The position numbers and the translations under genes are program-made. From the IMG/VR virus record IMGVR_UViG_3300046830_000242, positions 1-24,657 of that record: DNA of 24,657 nucleotides. The stretch is one strand, 5' to 3'. The notes beneath the pieces are model-generated. The model was not told the origin of the DNA and did not search any database. It saw only the letters and a list, made by a program, of their open reading frames with translations. Positions 1-24,170 of this stretch are shown piece after piece. The DNA is from a virus. Within the stretch, counting starts at the first letter, position 1, and each line of letters opens with the position of its first letter.

Positions 1-126
1 GGGCATGAATTGATCCAAGAAAGTCTTCCGAAGCGCGTGGCATTGGGTACTCTTGGCATAGTTAATACCCCGATTATGCCGCGCAAGGGATGCAAGGGAA
101 GCAAAGGCGGTAAGGGTAAGAAGTGA
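1..126 (+). CDS. C-terminal end of an unidentified protein (5' truncated)
   Basis: The frame is open from the first base to a TGA at 124-126 and encodes the last 41 residues of a protein whose start lies left of the window. The end is strongly basic and Gly/Lys-rich, finishing KGCKGSKGGKGKK. The stop overlaps the GTG start of the next gene in a 4-nt GTGA junction, as at other junctions in this block, which supports a real co-translated gene. I do not recognise the family; another virion or packaging protein would fit the position, but that is inference only. The lysine-rich tail could bind DNA or a membrane. Confidence 0.6.
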   Translation, partial: GHELIQESLPKRVALGTLGIVNTPIMPRKGCKGSKGGKGKK

Positions 127-8730: not shown

Positions 8731-8735
8731 CGATA

Positions 8736-8752
8736 GGATTTAACTAAAATCC
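8736..8752 (+). promoter_or_regulatory. Small perfect inverted repeat upstream of tail-fibre gene
   Basis: The 34-nt gap between the ejection protein and the tail fibre is the longest gap in the plus block. It holds a perfect 6-bp inverted repeat, GGATTT-AACTA-AAATCC. The stem is weak and has no U-tract, so it is not a convincing terminator. AT-richness and position would also suit a phage promoter or operator. The tail-fibre ATG at 8765 has no clear Shine-Dalgarno. Confidence 0.3.
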
Positions 8753-8764
8753 GTCGCTGGTTCC

Positions 8765-10591
8765 ATGGCAGTACCCAACTACAAGTACAGCGGGGTCTGT
8801 TATACAGCGACGGCAGATCAGAAAACGTTTGCCCTTACGACATCTGAGGGCGAAAGCATCGGATACCTTAAGGAAGAACATATCAAGGTACGCACAAGTG
8901 CTGACAGTGGTAACACTTGGACTGGGCTCAGTATTAACACTGACTATGTATTTGCTGATCCAGCCACTTCTATTGTCCTAAACACTGGTGCATCAGCTGG
9001 AACGCTGGTTGACATCAAACGGCAAACGCCGATGGAGGACGATTACATCGACTTCCAGGCAGGCAGTTTGCTGACTGCTGGTGAGCTGAACACCTTTGAC
9101 ACCTGGCAGCTCTACATCGACCAAGAGCTGGATGATGGCAAGTCTGCAATTGACGGGACGGTTGAGGGCGAAGCCGTTAAGGAAGTCACTGGCACGGTGC
9201 CAATCCTTGTCGATAACACCAACAACCAAACGCCTGTCGTCTCAATTGATCAGACATACGTTCTCGACAACCCAAACGACTTGGTCAGTGATACCAAGGT
9301 CATGTCAGAGAAGGCGATTGACTCCGCCTTCTCGCAAATCATTGGGCCAGACCCTGGTTATCCGGCGCAAGGTTATGCAGGCAAAATTGGCAAGCTTCGG
9401 ATTGATCCCAGCGGAGCAATCCCTAACACCTTTTTCTGGAGTGGTTCTGCCTGGGTGCAGATCCAAACCAAGGGTGAGCAGGGCGATCAAGGCCCACCAG
9501 GCCCTGCCCCTGGCTTGCAGGACCCGGCCGCAACAGCGGTCAATGTCCCGCTGCAAGGTGATGGCTCTTTAGGAACAGCAACAGCTGATGTTCTGCAGGA
9601 CCCAGCAACCAAGGATCTCAAATTCCTGTTTGGTATCCCGGTTGGGCAGAAGGGAGATAAGGGTGAAGACTCGACAGTTCCAGGGCCACCGCCTGGGTTA
9701 CAGGATCCTGCGGCGCTTGCTTATGCGATCGGGGTTAAGCCAGACGGAACTGTTAATGAGCCAGAAGCGGAGGTTACTCAGAACAGCAATGGCGACCTGC
9801 AGTTCGCTTTTGGTATCCCAACTGGTCAGACCGGAGCAAAGGGAGAAAAGGGCGACCAGGGTGATACCGGTCAAGCGGTCAGTTACAAGGGACCGATTGA
9901 TGCAACAACAGCAGCAGAGCCAACTGATCCGGCCAACGGAGATTTTTACGTCAACACGGTTGATGGCACCAGCTCATGGACAGGGTTGAGCGATGTCATA
10001 GATGGCACGCGGATTATCTGGAACGGCACGACAAACAAGTGGGATGCCTATGACCCCACTTATGCAGCAAATCTTGGTTACACAGCTGCAGCAGACAAGG
10101 GCACAATTACCAACACCAATGGCAGTGATGCTGAGCTGCCGCTGGTAACGCTTTCCAATGCGGGCCTGATGAGCCCCGCAGACAAAGGAAAGCTGAACAA
10201 TGTTGAGGCAGGGGCGCAGGTCAACCCAGATCTGAGCACTTATCTGCAGTCCGGGGACAACGTCAGTGAGTTGACGAACGACGCGGGCTACATCACATCA
10301 GCAGATGTCCCGGCTTCTCCTGTTACCAGCGTCAATTCACTGACGGGAGATGTTGAGCTGGGGCTCCAGGAGGTATTGGATCAGGGCAACACCTCGACTA
10401 CTGATCTGTGGGTTGGTGATGCGGGTGAGACGGTCAAGTTGTTGAACACCGGAACGGTTGAAGCCAGCGGCAGTGTTGAGGCACCCAGCGTGGTGGCAAC
10501 TGGGGGCGGATTTAGTGGTACCGGATTACAGGTGAGCGGATCTGTTTCGGCTGGCTCTTATCGCATTGACCTTCTCCCTGCACTGCCATGA
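8765..10591 (+). CDS. Tail fibre protein, T7 gp17-like N-terminus with collagen-like repeats
   Basis: The 608-aa protein opens with a domain like the T7 tail-fibre N-terminus that docks on the tail (residues 1-130: NYKYSGVCYTATADQKTFAL, then IKRQTPMEDDYIDFQAGS and LNTFDTWQLYIDQELDD). Collagen-like Gly-X-Y runs follow at about 236-250, 294-302 and 354-370, within a 61-residue tandem duplication. The middle holds LMSPADKGKLNNVEAGAQVN (near 465) and a Ser/Gly/Val-rich beta-repeat C-terminus, both typical of fibre shafts. The C-terminus is short and the next gene starts within the stop (ATGA), so receptor binding may fall to the 1195-aa neighbour. Tail-fibre identity is secure; receptor unknown. 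Confidence 0.9.
   Translation: MAVPNYKYSGVCYTATADQKTFALTTSEGESIGYLKEEHIKVRTSADSGNTWTGLSINTDYVFADPATSIVLNTGASAGTLVDIKRQTPMEDDYIDFQAGSLLTAGELNTFDTWQLYIDQELDDGKSAIDGTVEGEAVKEVTGTVPILVDNTNNQTPVVSIDQTYVLDNPNDLVSDTKVMSEKAIDSAFSQIIGPDPGYPAQGYAGKIGKLRIDPSGAIPNTFFWSGSAWVQIQTKGEQGDQGPPGPAPGLQDPAATAVNVPLQGDGSLGTATADVLQDPATKDLKFLFGIPVGQKGDKGEDSTVPGPPPGLQDPAALAYAIGVKPDGTVNEPEAEVTQNSNGDLQFAFGIPTGQTGAKGEKGDQGDTGQAVSYKGPIDATTAAEPTDPANGDFYVNTVDGTSSWTGLSDVIDGTRIIWNGTTNKWDAYDPTYAANLGYTAAADKGTITNTNGSDAELPLVTLSNAGLMSPADKGKLNNVEAGAQVNPDLSTYLQSGDNVSELTNDAGYITSADVPASPVTSVNSLTGDVELGLQEVLDQGNTSTTDLWVGDAGETVKLLNTGTVEASGSVEAPSVVATGGGFSGTGLQVSGSVSAGSYRIDLLPALP
9497..9862 (+). repeat. Tandem 61-aa duplication in the tail fibre
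   Basis: Two copies of about 61 codons (residues 245-305 and 306-366) share the order PGP-x-PGLQDPAA, a variable acidic middle, DLKFLFGIP or DLQFAFGIP, then GQ-x-G-x-KG(E/D). The copies have diverged at the DNA level. The unit joins a collagen-like triplet run to a short beta element, so duplication lengthens the fibre shaft. Confidence 0.75.
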
Positions 10592-10743
10592 GCACGATTC
10601 AAGACAACGACCAGTTTCTGGTTCAACGCGGCACCACTTCTTTCAAACAAAGCGCAGCTGATCTCATGAGCACTATTGAAGACACCGACCTGATGCTCGT
10701 CCAGCGAGGGACTGAGAGCTACCAGGTGACGTGCCTCGATGTC
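10588..10743 (+). repeat. Two 26-codon copies encoding a D-x-LVQRGT motif
   Basis: Codons 1-26 and 27-52 of the adhesin gene are tandem copies: each starts ATGAGCAC, encodes MSTI, and carries LVQRGT-x-S(F/Y) about 10 residues later. The motif looks like a small virion-docking unit, and its position at the N-terminus suggests it anchors the protein to the tail. That role is inference. Confidence 0.6.
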
Positions 10744-13700
10744 AAAGATCAGCTTGGCAGTGGCGGTGGCGGTGGCGGTGGCGGTGAGCCATCAGTGGGG
10801 TCAGTCACGTTGGTGCAAAACCCTCCCGTCGACGCCAACCGCTTTACCGGCAAGAGCTTCACCACAATGCTGGAAGGCAAGGCGCCTGACCAGCTGGCAA
10901 TGACGGGTCAGGTCGTTGGCGTTTTGGCGGTGGGCATTGGCACAGACCCAATCGTCACTGATGACGTGGACGGGCAAGCACCGGTTGAGCTAACGCTGCA
11001 AAGCGATTTGAACCTAGGCACAAATGCCATTGAAGTTGGCGACAAGGTCAAGGCCAACACGATTTACAAACCTAAAACCAGCACGATCGCCAGTGTTGGG
11101 CCAAACAATACATACGACGGAGACATTACTGGCGGTGTGGGCAACGAACCGACCTGGACAGTTGCCAATTCAGAGAGAGCGTTTGACGGGAGCTTGGATA
11201 CTTATGCAACGGTTCAATGCGGTGCATCAGATCAAATAGGCAATTATCGATTTATGTTTACCGCTATTGATCCAGTAGCGGGTGGCATCCCTTACACAAG
11301 CAAGGTGCGGGTTCATATTCAAACTTATTACAACGGCGCTTTGAACGACCCATTTTTTGAATGGGGAGCCTCCACCCAGATAGGAATCAATAACGGAGGT
11401 AAAACCAAGCTTGATAACAGCAAAGCCCCTAACGGTTGGTTTGACGTCGCCAATGGCAGCGGTGTACTTGAATCCTTTGATATTATTTGCTGGGCTTTAG
11501 GCACTGGTCCCAACAATGGCCCCAAAATTCGGGCCTTTGAGGTGGATGGAGAGATACTGATAAACAACCAAATTGAATTGACTTTGGAAGACAATACTGA
11601 CATCAATTTATTTCAGACTGGCGATATTGTTCAAACAAGTGGAACAGGTAATCCTGATTGGAACGAAACACAGATTTGGGACAAGAACGCAAACAATGTT
11701 ACTGACTGGTACGCGACAGGTGAATTAATTCTTGCTCATTTGTTTGACGGGAGTGTCACTACTCTTTGTCAATCGCGCAGTACAGACGCCTATTGCTATT
11801 TCACAAACCCGGTAATAGCTACCAGCAAGATCCGGGTCTTTTATCGCGGGCCTTCTAAGTCATGGTTCCTTGTTATTGATGGTGTTGATGTTCCGGTTTC
11901 TGATGCTGCTGGCGATCAACCGGGTGATGAGGCTTGGTATGACGTGCCCGCATCGTTCCCGTGTGAAATTTCTGGAGTCAGGAATAGAGGAACCGGCGAA
12001 GCGTATGCGATTGAAATTGACGACAAGATCCTTGTAAATGGCACGCTTGAAAACACGATTGCTTTGGTTGATCCAGCGGCTAATCGTGTTGACATTGCAG
12101 GCGGCGGTGCATGGTTAGGCGCTGATGGCAGTGGCACCCCAGGTGGAGCAACGTTTGTTCAAACCATGGACCCCAAGCGTGGTGAGGGTACGGTTTCAGC
12201 CATTAATGGCGCACAGGTAACGATTGATCCTGTTGTCGATAACTGCTTTAAGACTGGGCAGTATTTGACCGCCAACAAGAACGTTGAGATCCAGCCAATC
12301 ACTGACCCTATTGCTGGCTATGACTTGCCCAGCAAAACACTGACGCTAAATGGTGCCAAGGATTTATTGAACCTGGAAGTCGGTGATGAACTGTTCATGA
12401 CCGACGTTGACGGCAACCTCGCAACCGGCGATTACGAAACAAGTGCTTTGACGGCTTATGAATACACGTCAGTATCATCTAGAACGATGACGTTTGATGA
12501 TGCCAACGACCTGGAGTTTTTGACTCAAGGTGTTGTGATTACTTCTGACACGGAAACAACGCCTGTTTCTGGCGCCATAACTAATGTTGAGCCAGGCGTT
12601 GTTGAATACTTTGTGGTTGAGGGTGAAGACCAAACGCCAATTGACCTTTCGACTTATCCAGCTAATGCTGTTCTTGACATTCTTGTTTTGAAGAAAGGTG
12701 ATGACAGCCCCTCGCCTGGTCAGCCTGCCGCTGCAGATGGCGGTGACCAGGGTTGGGTTTACATGCGAAACACAACAATTGGCGAGTTTGAAAGCACCAC
12801 TTTTATTCCCAACAGCGGCAACAATTTTAATGGTGTTCAACTAAACACCAACCAAACCAGAGGCAACGGTGGCAGCGGTGGTCAAGCAAAAAGCAATGGC
12901 ACGTCACCTACGATGGATCTGGAATCAATTAGGTCCGCATTCACAGGGTTTACGTGGAATCATGGCGCAGGTGGTGAAGGTGGCAATTCAAGTGGCATGG
13001 TCGAGCAATACGGCGGTGGCGGTGGCGGCGGTGGTCTCTTAATTGACATTGGCGATTACGACGGAGACAATGCTGTCACTATTTCTCCCAACCCAACTGC
13101 GGACACAGGCGGTTCAGCCAGCTTTGCAACTCCTGGTCAAGGCGGTGTTGGTTGGGGCGCAGGCAGTGGCGGACGGGTTGGTCAACCGTCAAGATCTCTA
13201 GAAGAGAAAGGTGAACCGTTAGATCCTCCTGTTTCTGATGATCCTGCACCATTCGTGTCAACGAATAGTAAAGGTGCACCTGGAATTACTTTTGTTAAAG
13301 TCTTCAAGCCTCACAAACTTACGCTTGCTTCTGAGAAAGATTACGACGGGTTCATGCCCGGTGATTCTGTAACTCAAAGCGACGGTAACGCTACTGGTGA
13401 AGTTGTAAGCACGGATTTGTTAAACAGCACGATTGATATTTATCGAGTAACCGGAGATTGGCTGAAGGATGGTTCAACCACGATTGTCGGTGTTCCTCGC
13501 TTTGCAACTAGCACGGTTCAATCAGGGTCGGCACAAACGCTGCAAGCTTCAATCGTGCCCATCGAAGGGGCATGGCACGTAGGCTCAAAGGCACAGTTCA
13601 GTAAGACTGGAACTGGCACTGTGTTGTCGATCAACCTGTCACTGCAGTTGATCACAATGTCGGAAAGCAATGACCAGTGGGTGCCGGGCTATTACGCCAG

Positions 13701-14175
13701 TAGTTCAATTCGGCCTGCTGCCACGACGACGGCCTACCTGAAGTTCAATGCTGATGGTGAGGTCACTGGCTACGACTCAGCACCAGTTGAGCCACGGGTG
13801 ATGACAGCTCAAAACAACGTCGTCCTGCAGTTCCCCGAAACGTTCGCGGACACGGGCACTGCACCTGACGTTGAATTCCCTGATCCGGATGCATTCATCC
13901 AAACAACAGTGACGCTGACCAATACCGGCAGCGACCCGGTGAGTAAGGCATCAAACGTGTTGATCCCAGACTCAACCGCTGTTGATGCAGTCAAGGCCAT
14001 TGGCGAGTTCAGCAGCAATGCTGACGCTGTCAAAGCAATGGCGATTCAAATTGCCACCTACGACCAAAGAGCCGTTGAACACAGGGCAGAACAAGTCAAG
14101 ACTGCTGTTGCCAACTTCGAGACAAAGCTCGCTGATGCCCCGTCTCTAAGCGTCAACGACAGGTTGACGCCTTAG
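10588..14175 (+). CDS. Large putative tail adhesin / receptor-binding structural protein, 1195 aa
   Basis: The ATG lies inside the tail-fibre stop (ATGA overlap). Order of parts: two copies of a 26-aa motif (1-52; ...DQFLVQRGTTSF and ...DLMLVQRGTESY), an 8-residue poly-Gly linker (59-66), a first discoidin-like beta module (about 170-325, from AFDGSLDTYAT to IRAFEVDGEILIN), a second (about 355-490, LFDGSVTT to AIEIDDKILVNG), beta-rich repeats, a Gly-rich region (about 757-870, including eight consecutive Gly), and a helical C-terminal end. Discoidin-like modules usually bind carbohydrate, and Gly-rich domains occur at the tips of some phage adhesins. Adjacency to the fibre gene supports a receptor-binding role. 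The modules are recognised by motif order only, so the function is inference. Confidence 0.7.
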   Translation: MSTIQDNDQFLVQRGTTSFKQSAADLMSTIEDTDLMLVQRGTESYQVTCLDVKDQLGSGGGGGGGGEPSVGSVTLVQNPPVDANRFTGKSFTTMLEGKAPDQLAMTGQVVGVLAVGIGTDPIVTDDVDGQAPVELTLQSDLNLGTNAIEVGDKVKANTIYKPKTSTIASVGPNNTYDGDITGGVGNEPTWTVANSERAFDGSLDTYATVQCGASDQIGNYRFMFTAIDPVAGGIPYTSKVRVHIQTYYNGALNDPFFEWGASTQIGINNGGKTKLDNSKAPNGWFDVANGSGVLESFDIICWALGTGPNNGPKIRAFEVDGEILINNQIELTLEDNTDINLFQTGDIVQTSGTGNPDWNETQIWDKNANNVTDWYATGELILAHLFDGSVTTLCQSRSTDAYCYFTNPVIATSKIRVFYRGPSKSWFLVIDGVDVPVSDAAGDQPGDEAWYDVPASFPCEISGVRNRGTGEAYAIEIDDKILVNGTLENTIALVDPAANRVDIAGGGAWLGADGSGTPGGATFVQTMDPKRGEGTVSAINGAQVTIDPVVDNCFKTGQYLTANKNVEIQPITDPIAGYDLPSKTLTLNGAKDLLNLEVGDELFMTDVDGNLATGDYETSALTAYEYTSVSSRTMTFDDANDLEFLTQGVVITSDTETTPVSGAITNVEPGVVEYFVVEGEDQTPIDLSTYPANAVLDILVLKKGDDSPSPGQPAAADGGDQGWVYMRNTTIGEFESTTFIPNSGNNFNGVQLNTNQTRGNGGSGGQAKSNGTSPTMDLESIRSAFTGFTWNHGAGGEGGNSSGMVEQYGGGGGGGGLLIDIGDYDGDNAVTISPNPTADTGGSASFATPGQGGVGWGAGSGGRVGQPSRSLEEKGEPLDPPVSDDPAPFVSTNSKGAPGITFVKVFKPHKLTLASEKDYDGFMPGDSVTQSDGNATGEVVSTDLLNSTIDIYRVTGDWLKDGSTTIVGVPRFATSTVQSGSAQTLQASIVPIEGAWHVGSKAQFSKTGTGTVLSINLSLQLITMSESNDQWVPGYYASSSIRPAATTTAYLKFNADGEVTGYDSAPVEPRVMTAQNNVVLQFPETFADTGTAPDVEFPDPDAFIQTTVTLTNTGSDPVSKASNVLIPDSTAVDAVKAIGEFSSNADAVKAMAIQIATYDQRAVEHRAEQVKTAVANFETKLADAPSLSVNDRLTP
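10762..10785 (+). repeat. Hexanucleotide repeat (GGCGGT)x4, poly-Gly linker
   Basis: Four perfect GGCGGT units encode eight consecutive glycines (59-66) between the N-terminal motif copies and the first beta domain. It is a flexible linker and a possible site of slippage in steps of six bases, which would keep the reading frame. Confidence 0.8.
14150..14170 (+). other. Perfect 8-bp hairpin at the end of the adhesin gene
   Basis: GCGTCAAC and GTTGACGC form a perfect 8-bp inverted repeat around the loop GACAG, ending 2 nt before the TAG stop (14173-14175). No U-tract follows, so it does not qualify as an intrinsic terminator. It could stabilise or process mRNA. The arms contain the same GTTGAC/GTCAAC half-sites as the palindrome before the AbrB-like gene. 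Confidence 0.45.
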
Positions 14176-14200
14176 AAGAAACTCTCAAGAGGTACTTATC

Positions 14201-14503
14201 ATGACCCTGCTCGAATCTCATCAACCCAATTTTCCTGAGAAACCATCTGATGGCTTTCAGATCAAGAAAGATCTGCCAGATGGCAACGGCTATGTGATTT
14301 GGACGTACAACGCTCAATTCAATGAGTGGACAAACGAGGTCTTCAAGGCAGCCTTAACTGGCTATGTCTACACCGATCAGGTGCGGACAAGGTCAGAGGA
14401 GATCGCGACTCAACAGGATATCAACCTATACATCGCTGACACTATGACCAAGAGGGTCTCAGCGTTGGAAGAGAAGGTAGAAAGACTGCTTGAAAAACAG
14501 TGA
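14201..14503 (+). CDS. Small fibre-linked protein with C-terminal coiled coil (hypothetical)
   Basis: The 100-aa protein starts at ATG 14201 with a good Shine-Dalgarno (AAGAGG at 14187-14192, spacing 8). A compact N-terminal part contains NGYVIWTYNAQFNEWTNE (residues 29-46) and GYVYTDQVRTR, a Trp/Tyr-rich beta-like pattern. The last 30 residues form a likely coiled coil ending VSALEEKVERLLEKQ. Its position right after the fibre and adhesin genes suggests a tail-fibre accessory, chaperone or trimerisation protein. I do not recognise a named family. The stop overlaps the GTG of the next gene. Confidence 0.65.
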   Translation: MTLLESHQPNFPEKPSDGFQIKKDLPDGNGYVIWTYNAQFNEWTNEVFKAALTGYVYTDQVRTRSEEIATQQDINLYIADTMTKRVSALEEKVERLLEKQ

Positions 14504-14715
14504 AACGTGAAACGTTTTTGTTGTGGATGTTGGCTGGCCTGCTTACGTGGCAGGCCGCCATCTTTTCCTACGGGACGGTGATGTGTACCAGGGCGATGGA
14601 ACCTAAGGAGGTATGCCCCGAATTAGGTGATCGCTTTGATGGCTTTGTGAATACCAGCCTTGGTGCAGTGTTGGGTCTGCTGGCTGGCAGCGTTGCTACG
14701 CGGCAACGGCCATGA
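14500..14715 (+). CDS. Small two-helix membrane protein, holin candidate
   Basis: The 71-aa protein starts at GTG 14500, overlapping the upstream TGA (GTGA). It has a short basic N-terminus (MKRE), a hydrophobic helix at about 6-28 (FLLWMLAGLLTWQAAIFSYG), a 20-25 residue polar stretch with two cysteines, a second weaker helix at about 52-66 (TSLGAVLGLLAGSVA) and a basic end (RQRP). Size, two helices and the charged tail fit a small phage holin, but no lysin is adjacent; the lysozyme-like domain is in the virion protein at the other end of the block. Small spanins or membrane anchors are alternatives. Its last 20 nt are antisense to the end of the AbrB-like gene. Confidence 0.6.
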   Translation: MKRETFLLWMLAGLLTWQAAIFSYGTVMCTRAMEPKEVCPELGDRFDGFVNTSLGAVLGLLAGSVATRQRP

Positions 14716-15055
14716 CCTTAGTGAGGATGAGGCAGTCATCTTCCTGCTCAACCTTCACGTATTCACCAGGCTGAACGTTGATCATTTCTGCGTAGCAGCT
14801 GCTCAACGGGATCACCCCACGGCTGCTGGCTTTCACCTGATAGCTGGGCTGACGATGGCCAGTGCCAGGTGCGTGGGTTTCGCCAATGGTCAAACCTTGA
14901 GCAGCAGATAGAGCAGTAAAGAACTCAGTCTTTTTAAGGCTGGCCTTGCCATTGCGGATAGCTACATAACCAGCATTGGTGAGCATGGTTGGCATATCCA
15001 GCCCTGGATTAGCTGCGACGTAATCGACTAGCTCTTGCCCTGAAAGCTTTGACAT
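14696..15055 (-). CDS. AbrB-like transcriptional regulator of the cyanobacterial type (cyAbrB)
   Basis: From ATG 15055 the protein is 119 aa; a TTG at 15070 would add five residues but lies inside a palindrome, so I prefer the ATG. It follows the cyAbrB layout: LSGQELVDYV at the N-terminus, a middle with AGYVAIRNGKASL and FFTALSAAQGLTIG, an Arg-Gln-Pro-Ser-Tyr linker, and a C-terminal swapped-hairpin-like DNA-binding part with GVIPLSSCY, VQPGEYVKVEQ and CLILTKV. In cyanobacteria cyAbrB proteins regulate nitrogen and carbon metabolism genes. It is the last gene of the head/tail operon, 29 nt after the gp14-like gene, with possible promoter elements of its own. It could reprogram host metabolism or time phage transcription; both are inference. 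Family assignment is strong. Confidence 0.85.
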   Translation of the reverse strand: MSKLSGQELVDYVAANPGLDMPTMLTNAGYVAIRNGKASLKKTEFFTALSAAQGLTIGETHAPGTGHRQPSYQVKASSRGVIPLSSCYAEMINVQPGEYVKVEQEDDCLILTKVMAVAA

Positions 15056-15062
15056 TGACCAT

Positions 15063-15078
15063 GTTGACAACTGTCAAC
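15063..15078 (-). promoter_or_regulatory. Nested palindrome before the AbrB-like gene, candidate operator
   Basis: The 29-nt gap before ATG 15055 carries a perfect 7-bp dyad GTTGACA-GT-TGTCAAC, read on the minus strand. A second dyad ACTGT-TG-ACAGT overlaps its upstream half, and TATACT, a plausible -10 box, lies just upstream. No Shine-Dalgarno is visible, and the dyad ends 7 nt before the ATG. It could be an operator (for example AbrB autoregulation) or an RNA hairpin that gates translation. Confidence 0.5.
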
Positions 15079-15084
15079 AGTATA

Positions 15085-16338
15085 TCAACGGAAGCCTAGT
15101 GATCCATCGGCCTTTGTATAGCTCATGCTCATTGCGCCTTGTGCAGCGCTGACACCTGCACCTAGCAGGATTGATCCCCAACCAGGCTTGGCTGCTTTGG
15201 TATACATCATCTTCTCTGGCTTCAGTCCAGCGATTGGCTCCAGCGGATCAAAGATGATTGCCTCGCGGTAAGGAGTTGATGCACCCTTGATCGTGTTGAT
15301 GGTGCTGCTGACCAATGACGTGAACTCTCGCTCGCCTTGGCGTCTGGCTAAGTCAAAGCCAGGCTTGGTGAGTTGGTCGAAGTTGCGCATCAATGAATTG
15401 GTCTCAAAGGCATACGCCTTGTTTGCGCTCTGAGCTTGGCTCGCAAGGTTGGCCAACGTCAGCTGGTTGGAGTTCTTGCTGTAGTTCATCGATCGCATCT
15501 CCCCTTCAATCTCGGTGGCGATCTGCGCCATCTGCGAGGCTGTCTCGCCAGACAGGGATGCGTTGTAGTTGTTGAGTTGGTTGCGTCGTCTGCGTTGTTC
15601 TGTCTTCAGCAGGCCATAGCTGCGGCCAAAGGCTTTCATGTTGTCCAGCGCTATAGCGCGGGAGCTATTGCTGCCGCCCTGTCTGGCTGTAGCCCCAGCT
15701 CTGGTATCAGCGTCTTGCGCCAACGCTGTGACATATTCCGCGTCACGCTGCAGGGTGTCGAGCTGCTCGCCAATAACGATCTGCTCTTGGATTTGTTGGC
15801 CCTCAGCTTGTTTCTTGGCAAGCAACGCATCGCTCTGTTGGCCGCGTTGTTTGATTGAGTTGAGATAGCCGGCGATGTCATCCCTTGTCTTCAGCAGCGA
15901 TTGCGCCGCTTGAAAGTTCAGACCGGACAAGGTGTCATCACGCTTCATCTCTGATGAAGTCAGATCGTCTGCCAGCTGTGTTGTGACCTGAACAGCACGC
16001 AGCTGCTCGGCTTCAATGTATTGATCCCGCAGTGCGCCAATGTTCAGATCAAGGTTGGTCAGTGCAGTGTCGATGACTCGTGATTGCTGTGCCTCATAGT
16101 CTTCCTTGCGCACACGGTCGATGTATCGCTGAGCCTCAACATCAGCCAGGTTCCATGCGTGCTGTCGCCAGCCTTCAGCTCTATTAATCTCCCACTCTTT
16201 AGTGTCCCGCTCTAATTGAGCCTGTGCAATTTTCTCTTGCTCTGCATTCTGAGCATCAGCAGCTGAGCGTTGCTGACTGCCTTGCATGATTCCTGAAAGG
16301 CCGCCAATAGCAGCGGCCGCGATAGCGCCCCAGGCCAT
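15085..16338 (-). CDS. Internal virion protein, gp14-like (ejection protein)
   Basis: The 417-aa protein starts with a hydrophobic Ala/Gly-rich segment (AWGAIAAAAIGGLSGIMQGS, residues 2-21) followed by a long Gln/Glu/Arg-rich region likely to form coiled coils (about 25-320), and it ends with another small hydrophobic Gly/Ala stretch (SILLGAGVSAAQGAM). That layout, and its position directly after tail tubular protein B (5-nt gap), matches the gene 14 internal core protein of T7-like phages, which inserts in the outer envelope during ejection. T7 gp14 is shorter (about 196 aa); cyanophage versions tend to be longer. Assigned by layout and synteny rather than a signature motif. Confidence 0.65.
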   Translation of the reverse strand: MAWGAIAAAAIGGLSGIMQGSQQRSAADAQNAEQEKIAQAQLERDTKEWEINRAEGWRQHAWNLADVEAQRYIDRVRKEDYEAQQSRVIDTALTNLDLNIGALRDQYIEAEQLRAVQVTTQLADDLTSSEMKRDDTLSGLNFQAAQSLLKTRDDIAGYLNSIKQRGQQSDALLAKKQAEGQQIQEQIVIGEQLDTLQRDAEYVTALAQDADTRAGATARQGGSNSSRAIALDNMKAFGRSYGLLKTEQRRRRNQLNNYNASLSGETASQMAQIATEIEGEMRSMNYSKNSNQLTLANLASQAQSANKAYAFETNSLMRNFDQLTKPGFDLARRQGEREFTSLVSSTINTIKGASTPYREAIIFDPLEPIAGLKPEKMMYTKAAKPGWGSILLGAGVSAAQGAMSMSYTKADGSLGFR

Positions 16339-16343
16339 AACTC

Positions 16344-16997
16344 TTACGCAGCTTTCTCTCTGTCACTGTAAACGCCCTTCCATGACGCGCTAGTGACAGT
16401 GACGGGTAGCCAGGAATCTGACTCGATGATCACTGAACACTTGTCGTTCTGACTGCATACGGGAGCAGTGATGTTTCCGCTCTCCAATGACATGTCGCTT
16501 TTGTCGAGAGTGCTATTCATTACATCCAAAATGCGTGCTCGGAAGTTCACAACTGTGTCATTGCTCCGGTTCTCTCGCTTTACCCGCAGCGTGTAGGCCC
16601 CGGTATCAACGTGGTTCACCGTCCATCGCAGAATCTGAGTACGGCCAGCAAGCTGACCAATCCTCCTGTTACCTGACTCATTGGTGTCAGGCACATACCC
16701 AGTGTTGAACTCATACTCAAACTTGTACGGCTCACCAAACGCCACCTGATAGCTCGTCCAATCCCCAGGTGGATCACACACCAATGATGTGGTGGTTGTC
16801 TCCCCTAGCTTCAGACCTTGGTAGTCAGCATTGGTGAAGCGCACCACCGCCACTGTCTTCTCCGCCGGTGTGTACGGAATGGTGAATGTCGTCTTATTGG
16901 TGGTCGCGTCATACGCCGCAGTCACCGTTGCTGATGGTGCAATGAACCCTGACGTTGGATACTGCAGCAACCTGTCCAGATGGATCTGTGGTGTTGT
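16344..16997 (-). CDS. C-terminal part of tail tubular protein B, beyond an in-frame UAG
   Basis: This frame directly continues the upstream ORF after TAG 16998-17000: 9 codons (TTPQIHLDR), then 208 more to a TAA at 16344. There is no ATG or GTG at the beginning; a TTG at 16970 is the first possible start and has no ribosome-binding site. The sequence matches the C-terminal part expected for gp12-type nozzle proteins: an LDR motif, a beta-rich domain with EPYKFEYEFNTGYVPDT, RRIGQLAGRTQILRW, and a final IIESDSWLPVTVTSASWKG segment. The 217 sense codons have stayed open and well conserved in character, so this is not decayed sequence. It is likely made by readthrough, unless the stop is an error or recent mutation. 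Confidence 0.8.
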   Translation of the reverse strand, partial: TTPQIHLDRLLQYPTSGFIAPSATVTAAYDATTNKTTFTIPYTPAEKTVAVVRFTNADYQGLKLGETTTTSLVCDPPGDWTSYQVAFGEPYKFEYEFNTGYVPDTNESGNRRIGQLAGRTQILRWTVNHVDTGAYTLRVKRENRSNDTVVNFRARILDVMNSTLDKSDMSLESGNITAPVCSQNDKCSVIIESDSWLPVTVTSASWKGVYSDREKAA

Positions 16998-17000
16998 CTA
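16998..17000 (-). other. In-frame UAG codon inside the tail tubular protein B gene
   Basis: The codons around it read GAG ATC GAG GTA TAG ACA ACA CCA CAG. Both flanking ORFs are in one frame: 18926 to 16344 is 861 codons exactly. TAG also ends the genes at 8730, 14175 and 14696, so general UAG reassignment is unlikely. Confidence 0.9.
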
Positions 17001-18926
17001 TACCTCGATCTCATCGTTCAGCTGCAGGCAGAAGTACGTGCCCGTACTGTCCGTCACCAGCATGTAGAGAGCGTTGTCCATGAACTTCACCCACTGCACA
17101 TCTTGGTTGAATTCCCAATGACTCCAGCTGCGCTGGATCTTCTGTTGCCCAACCTCACCTGTCTGCCACAGGTACTTGTAGACAAAGACATCTTTCCTGT
17201 TGGTCGGTGACACGATCACCGCGGCATCGATGTTCTGACCTACATCCCAGTGCGTGACTGAACCAGTGATGTATTTCGGCACATAGTTCGTGACGTCCAG
17301 GCTGCTGCCTAGGTTCAGACCCAGCTTGGTGTTGCGCTGGTTGTAGAAGTTGAACTCACGGAAATGCGTATAGCCAAAGTATTCCGTGGCAAATAGAACC
17401 TGCGCACCAGACAGTTTGGGCCTGACGTTCGGGTTCATCTCCAGATTGCTAAGCCGGAAGATCTCACCCGTTAGCGGAGTCAATACATCTGCATCAGCTG
17501 CTCGCACCTGGAACTGTGAGGTGGACGAGAATGCAAGGATGCTGTCCTCAACAGGGATCATCCATTCAATTGGTGAGCTGCGTTCACTGGTGCCACGCAA
17601 TCCAAATGGATCCGTTGCCTGCACAGCAAGCGACGTGTCATTGAAGAAATTAAAGATGTCATCTGTCTCGCTGAACTGCACTGTCTCCTCAGCTGCCACC
17701 ACATAGCGGCTGCGAAACAACGCATGATCCCTGATCTTTTTGCCAACAAACTCAGGGTCAGGTGATGAGATGTCATCACCAGCTGTGCGCTCTGCCCACT
17801 TCGGAAACGTGTACTTGTATTCCTTGCCATCAACGGTCTGCGTCTCCTCGGCTCCATCCGCTGGCCCAACAAAGAACACGTCTTCAGCTGCGCGATAGAT
17901 GACCAGTGGCATGGTGTTGGAATCCAGCGCATAGGTAATCCCTGGCTTAACTGTCTCCTGCCAGGCACCATCGCCAAAGTCACCTGAGCCGAACGTGCTG
18001 AACTTCAACCAGCGGTTATCGACGGTTGTTGATGGGTCGCTTTCCACTTCAACGACATACCCGTCAGGCGCAATGACTGGCAGGTTCGCCAGGCTCTGTA
18101 CCTTTGTCGTAAACGCATTGGCCAGTTCGCTGCTGCGGCCGTCGTCGATCGTTATCTCAAAGTCGCTGTTGTCATCCTTGGTGACATAGATGACGTACTG
18201 CTCAACCCGTGCGGTGTAACCGCCCTGCCCATTGATCTGGCCCTGCAGTTCGGACGCAACGATTGATGTGCTGATGACGTTGTCGTCTGCCCCAGCGTCA
18301 GGCGTGGTGAAGCTCGCAACCTCGCTGCCGTTGATCTTCACCGTATAGGTGACGTTGTATGCAACAGCTCTAATGAACACCAGGCCTTTGCCTGTTTGCT
18401 GAGCAACGGTCGTGGGATTGTATGCAGTTTCCTTCTCACGGTTGAGCAGCAGGCCAACAGGACCAGTGCTAATCAGCGCGTACTTTTTGTAGTAATGCTC
18501 TGGATCGTTATAGATGTAGGAGTCGCTGTTGCCAGTGATGATTCCGTTGACAGCACTCAACCCAGTGCCATGGGTTTTGATTGTGGCTGGTGTCCCGTTA
18601 CGCCGCAGGTCGATGAACGTTTGATCAGTACCAGGGCGGCACAGGATTGAATACTGCTCGCCCTGTTTGATGTCCATCATCTCCAGATAGAAATCCGTGA
18701 GGATGTCATCGCTGATCTTGGACTGAAGCCGCATCGCGTTCCGCTTGGTCAGTCCCTCCACAGGGCTGGACCAACCGTTGATCTGCCGCGTGCCTTGCCC
18801 CGGTGTACGGAGATGCGGCGGCTGTTGCGAGACACCTTGGATCAACGTATCCAGATCACGACGGATCGGTGCGCTGGCTTTGTCAGGTGTTTTGCCCTTA
18901 CGGAACTTCGACTTGGTGCGGGCCAT
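16998..18926 (-). CDS. Tail tubular protein B (gp12-like nozzle), ends at in-frame amber
   Basis: ATG 18926 overlaps the TAA of tail tubular protein A (TAATG). The N-terminus carries the hallmark of the family, LIQGVSQQPPHLRTPGQGTR (residues 29-48) and SSPVEGLTKRNAM. Central motifs include IRDHALFRSRYVVAAEETVQ and FGLRGTSERSSPIEWMIPVE, also typical of gp12. The ORF stops at TAG 16998-17000 after 642 codons, short for the family (T7 gp12 about 794 aa). Reading through the TAG gives 860 residues including the conserved C-terminus. The protein forms the tail nozzle below tail tubular protein A and contacts the fibres. Identity is secure; the stop is the oddity. Confidence 0.92.
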   Translation of the reverse strand: MARTKSKFRKGKTPDKASAPIRRDLDTLIQGVSQQPPHLRTPGQGTRQINGWSSPVEGLTKRNAMRLQSKISDDILTDFYLEMMDIKQGEQYSILCRPGTDQTFIDLRRNGTPATIKTHGTGLSAVNGIITGNSDSYIYNDPEHYYKKYALISTGPVGLLLNREKETAYNPTTVAQQTGKGLVFIRAVAYNVTYTVKINGSEVASFTTPDAGADDNVISTSIVASELQGQINGQGGYTARVEQYVIYVTKDDNSDFEITIDDGRSSELANAFTTKVQSLANLPVIAPDGYVVEVESDPSTTVDNRWLKFSTFGSGDFGDGAWQETVKPGITYALDSNTMPLVIYRAAEDVFFVGPADGAEETQTVDGKEYKYTFPKWAERTAGDDISSPDPEFVGKKIRDHALFRSRYVVAAEETVQFSETDDIFNFFNDTSLAVQATDPFGLRGTSERSSPIEWMIPVEDSILAFSSTSQFQVRAADADVLTPLTGEIFRLSNLEMNPNVRPKLSGAQVLFATEYFGYTHFREFNFYNQRNTKLGLNLGSSLDVTNYVPKYITGSVTHWDVGQNIDAAVIVSPTNRKDVFVYKYLWQTGEVGQQKIQRSWSHWEFNQDVQWVKFMDNALYMLVTDSTGTYFCLQLNDEIEV

Positions 18927-19552
18927 TAGCGGACTCGGTAACGGGTGCCACCTGCTGGGATGTAACCAATGCCCTGGGTTGCCCCGCGGTCATTGCCCCA
19001 CAGCAAGTTGTTGTTGAGGGTGTTCTCTTCTGACCGGATCAACAGCGTCCGTGCTTGATCCTCATCCGCCACCGTGTAGGTGAAGACGATGGAGCTGGCG
19101 ACATAGCGATCAGAGAAGATCCGAGCGCTACGGATGGTGATGTACTGCTGAGCAGCATGGGGTAGTTCATCCCATGGCAGCTGCGATACAACCTTGGCAG
19201 CAGTGATCGGAGCATTGTCAATCACTGAGCCAAAGTCATACCGCTGGCTGTTGCGGTCATAGACCCGCAGGCCCCGCATCACGTACTGAGTGTCGGGGTA
19301 GGTGTTGGGTGAGAAGTTGACAGTCAGAGTGTTGCCAGGAACAACGTATGTCCCTTGTGCAGTTGGGTTGATCTGCACGGATTCATCAGTGTTCCAACTC
19401 CATGCTTCTGACTGCACATCACGACTGACCTCTTGCAATGTGCGTTGAGCCATCGCTTGGTCAGTGACCTGGCTTATGTCATCAGAAAGGCTGGCGACTC
19501 CAGCCTCTCCAATGGTTGCCAGCACTGTGTTTACAGCCTCTAGCTCAGTCAT
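18926..19552 (-). CDS. Tail tubular protein A (gp11-like adaptor)
   Basis: The 208-aa protein matches T7 gp11 in size (about 196 aa) and style: N-terminal ELEAVNTVLATIGEAGVASL, a helix with QAMAQRTLQEVSRDVQSEAW, WSWNTDE, and a C-terminal helix with HAAQQYITIRSARIFSDRYV. It forms the ring between portal and nozzle. The ATG lies within the stop of the 60-aa gene (ATGA), and its TAA overlaps the ATG of tail tubular protein B. No Shine-Dalgarno is visible, so translation is probably coupled. Confidence 0.9.
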   Translation of the reverse strand: MTELEAVNTVLATIGEAGVASLSDDISQVTDQAMAQRTLQEVSRDVQSEAWSWNTDESVQINPTAQGTYVVPGNTLTVNFSPNTYPDTQYVMRGLRVYDRNSQRYDFGSVIDNAPITAAKVVSQLPWDELPHAAQQYITIRSARIFSDRYVASSIVFTYTVADEDQARTLLIRSEENTLNNNLLWGNDRGATQGIGYIPAGGTRYRVR

Positions 19553-19731
19553 TTCGCAGACTTAGTTGTGGTTGCTTTGACTGCTTGTGCTTTTGGTGCT
19601 GATGTTGGGTAGCCCTCTGTTAGGTCATTACTGAGAGCGACAATGTCAACAACTGCAGCAGGGTCAAGCAGTTGATCGTCTTGCCATGTCCAGTCGGCCA
19701 CTGTGCCGTCAACCTTGATAGTTGTTGCCAT
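19549..19731 (-). CDS. Small hypothetical protein between capsid and tail tubular A
   Basis: The 60-aa protein starts MATTIKVDGTVADWTW and ends in a Lys/Thr/Ala-rich tail. No family is recognised. The ATG at 19731 sits 1 nt after the T-tract of the post-capsid terminator and has no Shine-Dalgarno, so expression must come from terminator readthrough or from a promoter inside the capsid end. It overlaps tail tubular protein A by 4 nt (ATGA), which argues that it is translated. Small genes at this place are common in T7-like cyanophages; possible roles are head completion or a minor virion component, both unproven. Confidence 0.65.
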   Translation of the reverse strand: MATTIKVDGTVADWTWQDDQLLDPAAVVDIVALSNDLTEGYPTSAPKAQAVKATTTKSAK

Positions 19732-19732
19732 G

Positions 19733-19755
19733 AAAAAAGGGGCATTGCTGCCCCT
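19733..19755 (-). terminator. Intrinsic terminator after the capsid gene
   Basis: Read on the minus strand: AGGGGCA-GCAA-TGCCCCT, then further T's. The stem is a perfect 7 bp with a GNRA-type tetraloop and a six-T tract, including the last stem base. It lies 31 nt after the capsid stop (TGA 19787-19789). T7 has its late terminator T-phi at the same place, after gene 10. It would boost capsid over downstream tail genes by partial termination. Confidence 0.85.
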
Positions 19756-19786
19756 AAGTTAATCTCCCCTCGCTAGTGAAACCAGA

Positions 19787-20824
19787 TCACAGAGAGTTAG
19801 AGATCTCGACGCAGCACTCAGGACGCAGGCAACCAACGCCCAGGGCGAACTTGGCAGTCATCAACGTGGCGTTATACATCACGTCGTAATCATTGCCGGT
19901 CATGCCCATGCTCAGGTCACGCAGTTTCACAACACCTGCTGAACCTTTCTGGAAGGCAAGCATCTTGGTGTTGCTCATGTCTGCAGTTGACTTGACCACA
20001 GATCCATTACTCACATAACCCTGCTCACCACTCTTAGCAGTGACAGAACCCTGAGCAATGTTGTTGCTGCTGTAGATAGAGAAGCCAGCAAGCTTGGCGA
20101 TCTGACCTTCCTTGTAGGAACCATTGGTTCCGGTCTGGTTGAAGTCAAAATTTATCGCACGCGATGACTGAATCAGGGTGTAGTAGCTCTCGGGAGTACA
20201 CACCAGGACGCGGCCCTCTTTGCTGACATCCTTGGAATCCAAGGCTTCAGCTGCAGCAAACACACTGGCGACAAGATCGTCAGCAGTGGGGGTTGCTTTG
20301 TTGATGTCGATGACAGTACCGGTGCGGTACGGATCATCGGGGCTCAGGCCTGCAGGCAGGTTTGCAGTCAGGTCAGCGGTTGAGGTGCGGGCACCCAGTG
20401 CAATCGTGCGAGCCAGACGCTTGTCATGCTCACGGGCCAGTGCTTCACCCAGCTCGGTCGAATAGATCGAACGGATGTCGTAATGAGCCTTGGCCTCTTG
20501 CAAGCTGTAGAGCGAGCAGTCAGCGATGAGGTAGTCATCAATGCGGATGACAACCTCGTTCTGCGCCATGTCACCCTGGCCGACGATCATCTCGCCGGGA
20601 GTGTGATACTTAGCAGTGAAGCGACCAGTCACAGGGAACTGCGCTGAGCGTCCGTTCTGGATGGTGCGGGTTTGCACCAGACCCTCGAAGATGTTTGTCC
20701 GCTTGAAGGCCGTTAGCACCTCTCCGGAAAAGACCTTGAGAAATAGGGCGTTGTCCTTATCCCAAGTTCCGGTGTCGGCGTTAATAGCACCGGGGGTGGA
20801 CAGTGTTAGTGAAGGGGCAGCCAT
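19787..20824 (-). CDS. Major capsid protein (gp10-like)
   Basis: The 345-aa protein matches T7 gp10A in length and in key regions: an N-arm followed by FLKVFSGEVLTAFKRTNIF (near 28-46), GRSAQFPVTGRFTAKYHTPG, IDDYLIADCSLYSLQEA, LAREHDKRLARTIALGA, EGRVLVCTPESYYTLIQSS and a C-terminal MYNATLMTAKFALGVGCLRP. It builds the HK97-fold icosahedral shell. It lies between scaffold (137-nt gap) and a strong terminator, the usual arrangement for the most abundant late protein. The leader lacks an evident Shine-Dalgarno but contains inverted repeats. No slippery site for a T7-like 10B frameshift product is seen near the stop. Confidence 0.95.
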   Translation of the reverse strand: MAAPSLTLSTPGAINADTGTWDKDNALFLKVFSGEVLTAFKRTNIFEGLVQTRTIQNGRSAQFPVTGRFTAKYHTPGEMIVGQGDMAQNEVVIRIDDYLIADCSLYSLQEAKAHYDIRSIYSTELGEALAREHDKRLARTIALGARTSTADLTANLPAGLSPDDPYRTGTVIDINKATPTADDLVASVFAAAEALDSKDVSKEGRVLVCTPESYYTLIQSSRAINFDFNQTGTNGSYKEGQIAKLAGFSIYSSNNIAQGSVTAKSGEQGYVSNGSVVKSTADMSNTKMLAFQKGSAGVVKLRDLSMGMTGNDYDVMYNATLMTAKFALGVGCLRPECCVEISNSL

Positions 20825-20961
20825 TTGTCAGGACTGTTGTTGTTGTGAACAGTGACCAACCGGTGCATCACGCATCCCCACTTCTGTTGTCCTTAGGTAC
20901 GCAGTGCGGCTAAGGGAACAGATCCTGTGGTGTTGAATCTGCTCCCATTCTTACAACAAAG
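20825..20961 (-). promoter_or_regulatory. Capsid leader with two inverted repeats
   Basis: This 137-nt gap is the longest in the minus block. At 20891-20915 CCTTAG and CTAAGG enclose an inner CGC-AGT-GCG stem, giving a nested hairpin. At 20833-20853, ending 8 nt before the capsid ATG, ACTGTT and AACAGT enclose a 9-nt loop. Neither has a U-tract. A capsid promoter, RNA processing site or translational control element would fit the place; I cannot identify a promoter consensus. Confidence 0.4.
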
Positions 20962-21639
20962 TCAACGTTGGTTAAACACATTGCTGACTGCAATGCGTTG
21001 CTCAACCTCTTTGATGTACGCCGGGTCATTCCCATAGCGAGGATCCTGCATTGCTGCAATCACCTGTGCTTCTGATGCAAACCCACGCACGTCATTGGTT
21101 GGAGCACGACCGCCAGTCAGCTTGGGTTCATAACCCGTCGCCATCATGTAGTCGTATTGAATGCCCTTCACCTGCGCAAGGATTGATGCTTCATCCCCAT
21201 CGTTCAAAGATTCATTGAACGCTGAGATGCGTGATGCATCCAGGTTTTGACTGGCCCAACCAAGCAACGCCGTCAACTTCTCTTGACCGCCGGTCTGTTT
21301 GAAGATGCTTTCGCGGATCTGCTGAGCCTCCTCTGCTGATCTGCCGCCTTCCTCATCATCATCGTCATCGTCTGACTCATAGCCAGCCCCCGGTTCCTCT
21401 TCCTCTTCCTCGCCACGCAAGCGTTCGTTCTCGCGCTGCAGGTTCTTGTAGGCCTCAACCAGATCGTCCTGGCTTTTGTACTTGCCAAGGATTAGATCCT
21501 CGCTTTCCTCTTGCTGCTCAGGGGGCTGGCCGCCTGTTGCCTCGTCGTACAACTCTGCGCGAGCTGCATCAACTCTGGCCTGTTCATCAATGGCACCTTG
21601 ATCGGCAGTGTTGTCCTGCCCAGTTTCAATTACTGGCAT
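20962..21639 (-). CDS. Capsid scaffolding protein (gp9-like)
   Basis: The 225-aa protein is highly acidic, with a Glu run followed by an Asp run at about 75-97, and has a helix-rich body and a C-terminal helix with FASEAQVIAAMQDPRY and YIKEVEQRIA, typical of T7-type scaffolds that bind the inner capsid surface. It lies between portal and capsid as expected. ATG 21639 is 5 nt after the stop of the small 52-aa ORF and lacks a Shine-Dalgarno, so coupling with that ORF may control it. T7 gp9 is longer (about 307 aa). Confidence 0.9.
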   Translation of the reverse strand: MPVIETGQDNTADQGAIDEQARVDAARAELYDEATGGQPPEQQEESEDLILGKYKSQDDLVEAYKNLQRENERLRGEEEEEEPGAGYESDDDDDDEEGGRSAEEAQQIRESIFKQTGGQEKLTALLGWASQNLDASRISAFNESLNDGDEASILAQVKGIQYDYMMATGYEPKLTGGRAPTNDVRGFASEAQVIAAMQDPRYGNDPAYIKEVEQRIAVSNVFNQR

Positions 21640-21644
21640 TGCTA

Positions 21645-21803
21645 TCAGCGGATAAAGTTGTCAGTGATAATCATTTGGCCACCGTCAGGCAGTGGCCTTA
21701 AGTGTGAGCCGGGCTTGACCTTTTCCTCAGGCTGCTGCTGCTGTTGGTCCACCACTGGGGACTGCCGGCGGCGGCGCGTTGAAGACTCCGGAGTTGGCTG
21801 CAT
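21645..21803 (-). CDS. Unlisted 52-aa ORF overlapping the portal 3' end
   Basis: An open frame, +1 relative to the portal, begins at ATG 21803 inside the portal gene and runs 52 codons to TGA 21645, only 5 nt before the scaffold ATG. The first half overlaps portal for 77 nt and is Arg- then Gln-rich. The free second half reads PEEKVKPGSHLRPLPDGGQ then MIITDNFIR, which looks like real protein rather than spacer. GAGGAG lies about 13 nt upstream of the ATG; GTG codons at 21755 or 21752 are alternative starts. It could equally be a +1 frameshift extension of portal. No family recognised. Confidence 0.45.
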   Translation of the reverse strand: MQPTPESSTRRRRQSPVVDQQQQQPEEKVKPGSHLRPLPDGGQMIITDNFIR

Positions 21804-23319
21804 TGCTAGCAAGTTGCTCCTCTAATGCTACCTTCTGTTGTTGACTTTGTTCGGCTTGTAGTTCTTCCTCAGTCTTAACAAGTCCAGCAATATCAATGCC
21901 ATCGCTAGCTGCAAACCTGCGAATCAATTCAGTTGGATTGATCAGTGACAACATCTGCTCTGGTCCCAGTGCTGCACTTGTGACCTGCAGGAAGTTGGTC
22001 AACCGTTGCTTGTCATTGCCGCGGCCAATAGCTTCCAAGCCAGTGGTGATCTGTGGGTCAACCAAGTCAACAGGAATCGGTGGGATCTCACCCGCTTGCT
22101 CCATCAGGAACAGCACCCGCTTGATCAACGGCAGCTGCAACTCTTGGCTCAGCATTGAGTACACACCCGCCAGGCCAGACTCCAGCTGCTCAGCCATCAG
22201 CCTGATCTCTTCTGCTGTTACCCGTTCAGCATCACGCTGCACTGATTCATTCATCAGGAACGTGAAGCTGATCCGCCTCTCCAACAACTGAATGGTCTGC
22301 AGCGCCACGCTCATGTCTGCTGCCTTGCCAACCTGCAACGCCTCAACATCAGCAGCATTGCCGGCAACGATCGCACCGTTCTCTGCACGCGCCAGGCTGT
22401 CAGCTCGGGTCACACCATTGGGGTTGACCAAGAACATTGCCTTGGCACTGATCAAGCTGCCCTCAACAATCGCCTTGCTCAGCGACTCCAGGCTGTTGAG
22501 ATCACCCAGCACTTCCTCGCACAAGCTGCGGCCATAGCTCTCGCCTGCAATCTTGTGCAGCCTGAGCACCAACCAAGGGCAGTTATCAATACGGCTAAAG
22601 CCACGGGATCCCTTGACTACCTTGCCGTGAAATTCTTGGTGCCACTCAACACGATCTTCAGTCGCGTCGAACTTGACGTGGGTATAGATGTTGTTGGCCT
22701 TGGCCTTGCCGCTGGCTGAATCCTCATCAGGCTTCTCACCTTCGGGCAGGTACTTATCGCTGACCGTTTCTTTGATGACGACTTCGCTGACGTTGCCCTC
22801 CGGGTCACGGTCAACCACGTAACTACGCAGTGACCACATCCGCAGGTTGTCTGGGCCGACATACAGCAGAGCGTTGCCACCAACAATCAAATGTTTGATG
22901 GCCTCGAACAACGCTGGCCTGGTCTGCATCTTGTCCAGTCGCCCCAGGATCTGGCGCTCGATGCTGGACAGAGCAACGTCTAGTTGGCTGAGGGTCTCCT
23001 GCTCTTCCCCGCCGGTCTCCTCCAGGTACTTACGGACCTGTCCCTTATCAATCACCAACCGAAAGAATGGTTGGCTTGGGGGATAGAGAGCAAGCAACAG
23101 CTTCGCGCTGATCGAACTACAGCCGCGGGCTCCTGCCCCTTGATACAGGCTGCGCAGTCTGTTGTAGGGCTCGGCTCCCGTCTGATAGTTCTGGTCCGAC
23201 TCAGGGATCAGTGATGGGATGGTTAGCTGACTGCAGTCAATAGCTCGCCGCAGGTAAATGCTGCGATACATCGACAGGTCATCGAACCTGGCTTGCGCTG
23301 TGTTTTTAGTGGTGGCCAT
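21727..23319 (-). CDS. Portal / head-tail connector protein (gp8-like)
   Basis: The 530-aa protein equals T7 gp8 in length (536 aa) and has its typical segments: RFDDLSMYRSIYLRRAIDCS near the N-terminus, GARGCSSISAKLLLALYPPS (near 61-80), FEAIKHLIVGGNALLYVGPD, SYGRSLCEEVLGDLNSLESL (the clip/stem region) and RVTAEEIRLMAEQLESGLAG. It forms the dodecameric DNA gate at one capsid vertex. The C-terminus is Gln-rich and ends Pro/Gly/Ala-rich. Its ATG overlaps the TAA of the 283-aa gene (TAATG). Confidence 0.95.
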   Translation of the reverse strand: MATTKNTAQARFDDLSMYRSIYLRRAIDCSQLTIPSLIPESDQNYQTGAEPYNRLRSLYQGAGARGCSSISAKLLLALYPPSQPFFRLVIDKGQVRKYLEETGGEEQETLSQLDVALSSIERQILGRLDKMQTRPALFEAIKHLIVGGNALLYVGPDNLRMWSLRSYVVDRDPEGNVSEVVIKETVSDKYLPEGEKPDEDSASGKAKANNIYTHVKFDATEDRVEWHQEFHGKVVKGSRGFSRIDNCPWLVLRLHKIAGESYGRSLCEEVLGDLNSLESLSKAIVEGSLISAKAMFLVNPNGVTRADSLARAENGAIVAGNAADVEALQVGKAADMSVALQTIQLLERRISFTFLMNESVQRDAERVTAEEIRLMAEQLESGLAGVYSMLSQELQLPLIKRVLFLMEQAGEIPPIPVDLVDPQITTGLEAIGRGNDKQRLTNFLQVTSAALGPEQMLSLINPTELIRRFAASDGIDIAGLVKTEEELQAEQSQQQKVALEEQLASNAANSGVFNAPPPAVPSGGPTAAAA

Positions 23320-24170
23320 TAGGCGAGCTGTAGACCAGCGAGGGGATTAGCGGTAGTGCCCAGGCCACTGAGGATTGTCAGATCACTGAGTTGGTTGTTG
23401 GCTGCCTTGCGATCAGTCTTGCGCTGGTCGCCGTAGCTGATCGACAACGCATTGGGGTTGGCCTGCGGCACAAATGCATTGCGCATGTTGTCGGCACGTT
23501 GATTGGCTGCAGCCAGGGCAGCGTTAGCTGATGCCAACTGCTGCGTCATCATCTGATCAAGGCCTTGGAACTTCTGGTCGTAGCCAGACTGAATGCCAGC
23601 CAAGGTTTCAGCGTTGGCTGCATTGATGTCTGCAATCCGTTGTTCAGCTTCCGCTGCTTGCTTGTCAAGAAGATCCTGAAGGGCACTCGTGTCGGGGCCA
23701 GCGGGGGCAGCGCCACCACCACCGCCACCACCGCCACCACCGCCGCCGGTCAGGCCGCCGCCAAGGATGTCGTTCAACCTATCCAGAACTTCCTGGTTGC
23801 CACCGGAGCTGGGGTTCCTGTTTGCAAGGTCACGAGCTGCCCTGTTCCCGGCATCGCGATCCTGCCCCATCGCTCCAACAATGTCCTCGAACTTGCCGCT
23901 GTCGCGGTCATAAGTCTTTGGCTTGCTGTCGTTGTTATTCCGGTTTTTGTTGTTGTTCTTCTGGCTGGCCCGTGAGTCTTTGTAGGCAGCTTCTCTGATC
24001 TTGAACTCTTGCAGTCCGCGAGGGCTGCGCTGTGCTCTGGCGCTGTTGTTCCATCTCTTTTTGCTGGCCTTGTAATCGCTCTTCTTTTTCCAGGACTTGT
24101 TGTCCGGATTCTTGAGGTACCGCTTCCAGGCTGGTTGCTTTTTGTTTTTGCTGTTGTTCTTCTTACCCAT
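23319..24170 (-). CDS. Lys/Asn-rich protein with poly-Gly linker upstream of portal
   Basis: The 283-aa protein has three parts. Residues 1-90 are extremely basic and Lys/Asn/Ser-rich (MGKKNNSKNKKQPAWKRYLK at the start), as if to bind nucleic acid. A 12-residue glycine run at 142-153 is the hinge. Residues 160-240 form a probable coiled coil (LLDKQAAEAEQRIADINAAN), and the tail ends NPLAGLQLA. It sits between the exonuclease cluster and portal, the place of T7 gp7/7.3; gp7.3 is a virion tail protein, so a structural role is plausible. ATG 24170 has GAGG 8 nt upstream and overlaps the previous stop by 8 nt. No named family recognised. Confidence 0.7.
   Translation of the reverse strand: MGKKNNSKNKKQPAWKRYLKNPDNKSWKKKSDYKASKKRWNNSARAQRSPRGLQEFKIREAAYKDSRASQKNNNKNRNNNDSKPKTYDRDSGKFEDIVGAMGQDRDAGNRAARDLANRNPSSGGNQEVLDRLNDILGGGLTGGGGGGGGGGGGAAPAGPDTSALQDLLDKQAAEAEQRIADINAANAETLAGIQSGYDQKFQGLDQMMTQQLASANAALAAANQRADNMRNAFVPQANPNALSISYGDQRKTDRKAANNQLSDLTILSGLGTTANPLAGLQLA
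23712..23747 (-). repeat. Twelve consecutive glycine codons (GGT/GGC)
   Basis: A run of GGT and GGC triplets in the 283-aa gene encodes 12 glycines. Units are imperfect triplets of the pattern GGTGGTGGC. It is a flexible hinge between the basic N-terminal and coiled-coil parts and could change length by slippage without loss of frame. Confidence 0.8.

Follow-up and report, generated by a model that had tools for sequence, protein, structure and literature searches.

A premature in-frame TAG in the tail nozzle gene of a Krakvirus-like phage contig: readthrough or contig-specific lesion?

What does a single in-frame stop codon mean when the conserved C-terminal part of the gene continues, in the same frame, beyond it? 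The question is raised by the tail nozzle gene of the IMG/VR virus record IMGVR_UViG_3300046830_000242, analysed here over a stretch of 24,657 nucleotides (the window). An earlier note, made from the sequence by itself, had offered three options, namely programmed or suppressor-dependent readthrough, a fresh nonsense mutation and a sequencing error; the second and third have held up, and the evidence is against the first. Very probably, the nozzle gene is an ordinary Krakvirus-like one except for a stop that belongs to this contig alone, either as a fresh nonsense allele or through an error in the consensus.

The nozzle frame and its setting

Translation confirmed that the ORFs 18926-16998 and 16997-16344 share one frame: on the minus strand, 18926-16344 comprises 861 codons, made up of 642 sense codons, TAG, 217 further sense codons and TAA (Table 1). 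Both parts are gp12-like, C-terminal domain included, just as the note had held. The first matches positions 4-573 of the 794 in the Pfam family Phage_nozzle (PF25675; E 2.5e-149) and the second matches positions 601-793 (E 3.9e-37). The matches are collinear and do not overlap, and the shared frame is accordingly no coincidence; PHROG 457 is matched by both in the same manner. Membership of the PF25675 family is given by the profile match, which is near full-length when the two parts are joined. An uninterrupted frame is a property of the intact members rather than of family descent, and it is this property that the TAG at codon 643 removes; the window gene is accordingly classed as a family member whose copy here is broken or misread. 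The LDR motif that had been noticed in the second part is indeed there, and is invariant across 18 relatives.

Table 1. Features of the nozzle locus (coordinates are those of the window)
Feature	Coordinates	Strand	Basis or remark
Tail adaptor (tail tubular protein A, gp11-like), intact, directly upstream of the nozzle	18926..19552	-	PF17212 Tube
Nozzle (tail tubular protein B, T7 gp12-like), codons 1-642 and premature TAG	16998..18926	-	PF25675 positions 4-573; phmmer to 6r21 and 8i4m
Premature in-frame TAG, codon 643	16998..17000	-	17000-17001 are the only differences from the sister contig L003 within 16746-20008
Remaining nozzle frame, 217 codons and TAA; should hold most of the fibre dock and the C-terminal platform	16344..16997	-	PF25675 positions 601-793; PDB matches; content from position in T7 gp12 and the domain order in PMC6702177
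Gene after the nozzle, 417 aa, intact	15085..16338	-	Homologue of AP013549 BAQ94493

The late module of the window (portal, scaffold, capsid, adaptor and nozzle) is T7-like, and the nozzle stands in the context usual for its family, adjoining the tail adaptor with the capsid, scaffold and portal genes beyond. The closest named genome is AP013549.1, of the uncultured phage MedDCM-OCT-S39-C11 (Krakvirus S39C11, Autographiviridae). The product of the gene after the nozzle has 641 residues in AP013549 against 417 in the window, the difference being internal and both ends conserved; its homologue in the relative L004 also has 417. Positions 123-14715 contain probable internal virion protein genes, a T7-type tail fibre gene (PF03906 at the N-terminus of its product) and a gene for a 1195-residue protein, all on the strand opposite to the head-tail module, a divergent layout shared with AP013549. 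A search of genome contigs for the host gave one contig: a nozzle relative with 60% identity (L102:8001-10589) lies on contig NHDG01000121.1 of the MAG Planctomycetia bacterium TMED53, which may be a clue to the host or may be a phage contig that was mis-binned.

What would be lost if translation ended at the TAG? In T7 gp12, the chain passes from the propeller to the fibre dock and ends in a C-terminal platform, which rests on the adaptor and to which the N-terminus contributes three strands (PMC6702177). By alignment, residue 631 of the window protein corresponds to residue 572 of T7 gp12, and residue 727, the 84th of the second part, to residue 666. On this alignment the stop would thus fall after the propeller and remove the C-terminal share of the platform, and we infer that most of the fibre dock would also go with the truncation. 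The 642-residue chain should not dock on the adaptor, so that a working short isoform is improbable and the product is better regarded as a broken nozzle. An AlphaFold model from the nozzle alignment was of low confidence (mean pLDDT 53.9) and was set aside.

The stop site among relatives

Relatives were collected by protein-guided scans of IMG/VR and read in frame against the window protein. All 72 distinct relatives are free of in-frame stops in the nozzle gene. The stop site is spanned by 65 of them, which have 14 different residues there (Pro, Ala, Lys, Thr, Val, Leu, Gln, Arg, Ile, Met, Glu, Asp, Ser and His), a spread as expected for a tolerant, variable linker, which from the alignment this site appears to be; it lies between the end of the propeller and the LDR motif. 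The closest relative that reaches the end of the gene (L004) has an uninterrupted ORF of 860 residues. A search of the viral contig collection with a degenerate pattern for a stop in this position gave no match, although the pattern was narrow and the negative is a weak one.

A further comparison is with the sister contig IMGVR_UViG_3300047364_000085 (L003/L031), which overlaps window positions 16746-23926 with 21 differences in 7,181 bases (99.7% identical) and ends within the nozzle gene. Throughout 16746-20008 the two contigs differ only at the adjacent bases 17000 and 17001, where L003 has GTG AAG (Val-Lys) and the window has GTA TAG (Val-stop); the nozzle DNA of the overlap is otherwise identical. 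It follows that the stop either arose after the split from a strain identical over the rest of the shared nozzle part, or is not real. Of the remaining 19 differences, most leave the protein unchanged and most are grouped in the capsid, scaffold and portal genes; several of the window alleles recur in other relatives, so that strain variation of the ordinary kind seems the likely source. Nine of the base differences from L003 are crowded into 23193-23227 of the portal gene, and include a three-base serine switch (TCG/AGT); this cluster suggests that strains have recombined or that the assembly is mixed.

In comparisons of the window with four relatives, dN/dS was about 0.1-0.18 for the first part and 0.1-0.14 for the second; this shows past purifying selection on both parts, and thus that the entire frame encoded a functional protein until very recently. 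Decay could not yet be visible after so young a stop, so the ratios say nothing about continued translation of the second part in this contig; as the window and L003 are otherwise identical around the stop, the selection on the second part reflects its history before the stop.

Could the stop be decoded?

Readthrough, suppression, gene splitting and recoding are improbable even when taken together. In the first, programmed readthrough would give a major 642-residue and a minor 860-residue nozzle, in the manner of the coat and A1 proteins of Q-beta. The long open frame beyond the stop, under purifying selection, would suit this idea, as would the A that follows the UAG, but the selection is a record of the time before the stop arose. 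A conserved stop with coding selection beyond it, the usual mark of readthrough, was not found, there being no stop in the 65 site-spanning relatives or in the near-identical L003; there is likewise no conserved stop context, because no relative has a stop. The RNA 3' of the TAG showed no unusual structure (folding z-score -0.15 over 123 nt) and no stimulatory sequence or structure of the kind associated with readthrough, and the short form would be without its adaptor-docking platform. The earlier note had proposed an alignment of homologues as a test of whether a sense codon stands at the site; one does in the relatives, and we regard programmed readthrough as highly unlikely. Its further idea, that a minor long form might vary fibre attachment, does not fit either, since the long form is simply the ordinary nozzle.

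Of similarly low probability is a conditional amber allele, with growth only on a host possessing a CUA suppressor tRNA that inserts a residue at codon 643. As relatives tolerate 14 different residues at the site, a working nozzle could be expected from almost any suppressor. Against this, the stop is confined to one contig, TAG terminates three other genes of the window (5857-8730, 10588-14175 and 14696-15070, in accord with what had been noted), and tRNA genes were found neither in the window (itself a fragment) nor in ten related loci; Rfam gave no matches in the window.

Still less likely is a split gene, in which the second part would be re-initiated and the two chains would co-assemble. 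The break is well placed for this, since the linker it falls in is variable and separates the end of the propeller from the LDR motif, but the earliest possible in-frame start 3' of the stop is a TTG at 16970 with a ribosome-binding site that is unconvincing by eye (the second part had already been described as having no credible start), this TTG simply encodes leucine, at a position that varies among relatives, and no relative is split at this place. Finally, reassignment of TAG to sense throughout the phage, as in code 15, which would account for an in-frame TAG in a late gene, may be dismissed, the note having already thought it unlikely: the nozzle is the only listed gene with an internal in-frame stop, in the roughly 7,800 codons of the listed genes TAG occurs in frame once rather than many times, TAG is not avoided as a terminator (three genes end in it), and the window and ten related loci contain no suppressor tRNA.

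The nature of the lesion, and known systems

We therefore return to a lesion specific to this contig. The gene would be an ordinary 860-codon nozzle gene of the T7 gp12 type, in a marine Krakvirus-like phage of the family Autographiviridae, in which two adjacent base differences have turned GTG AAG (Val-Lys) into GTA TAG (Val-stop) in a variable linker, with no decoding mechanism attached. Either the sampled particles have acquired a nonsense mutation very recently or the consensus is wrong, and we see these as about equally probable. What sits awkwardly with this reading is that the changed bases are adjacent, a result rarely given by independent single-base errors; being adjacent, they probably represent one event, biological or technical, which could be either a multi-base mutation or a local error in the consensus. 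The valine codon GTA that precedes the stop occurs naturally in the relatives L006, L009 and L011, so part of the change may be real variation. The possibility that the TAG was templated from a known strain was considered and rejected, as no relative has a stop at the site and only the GTA valine occurs. Contig-private lesions do occur in this set, as exemplified by L096, in which a private tandem repeat of about 22-23 bases (L096:5200-5320) shifts the nozzle frame; that repeat is either an assembly artefact or a real duplication.

If the TAG is real, translation would end at residue 642, retaining the tip and the propeller; the chain, by inference lacking the C-terminal platform that binds the adaptor as well as most of the fibre dock, should not assemble, so that genomes with the TAG would not be viable unless rescued by complementation or by chance suppression. 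It seems to us very unlikely that an amber allele of this essential tail gene exists in the wild and that the population persists through host suppression or complementation in co-infection; were such an allele genuine and widespread, it would be a sign of nonsense suppression or complementation in natural populations of marine phages. More generally, a single in-frame stop in a metagenomic phage contig ought to be checked against near-identical contigs before readthrough is proposed.

How does the window gene compare with known systems? Searches of the literature turned up no account of this phage and none of a similar stop in a nozzle gene. T7 gp12 (PDB 6r21) and gp23 of cyanophage P-SCSP1u (PDB 8i4m) are, by sequence, of the same family as the window nozzle, but their chains, of 794 and 806 residues, are continuous. 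The nozzle of AP013549.1 is the same gene, with about 76% protein identity over both parts and the same neighbours, and differs in being one uninterrupted gene with CCA (Pro) at the site. L003 has AAG (Lys) in place of the TAG. The Q-beta A1 protein resembles the window gene in that a stop is followed by a long in-frame extension. In Q-beta, the stop is conserved and the extension gives a minor, essential product, whereas in the window the stop is private and the full-length nozzle is the norm.
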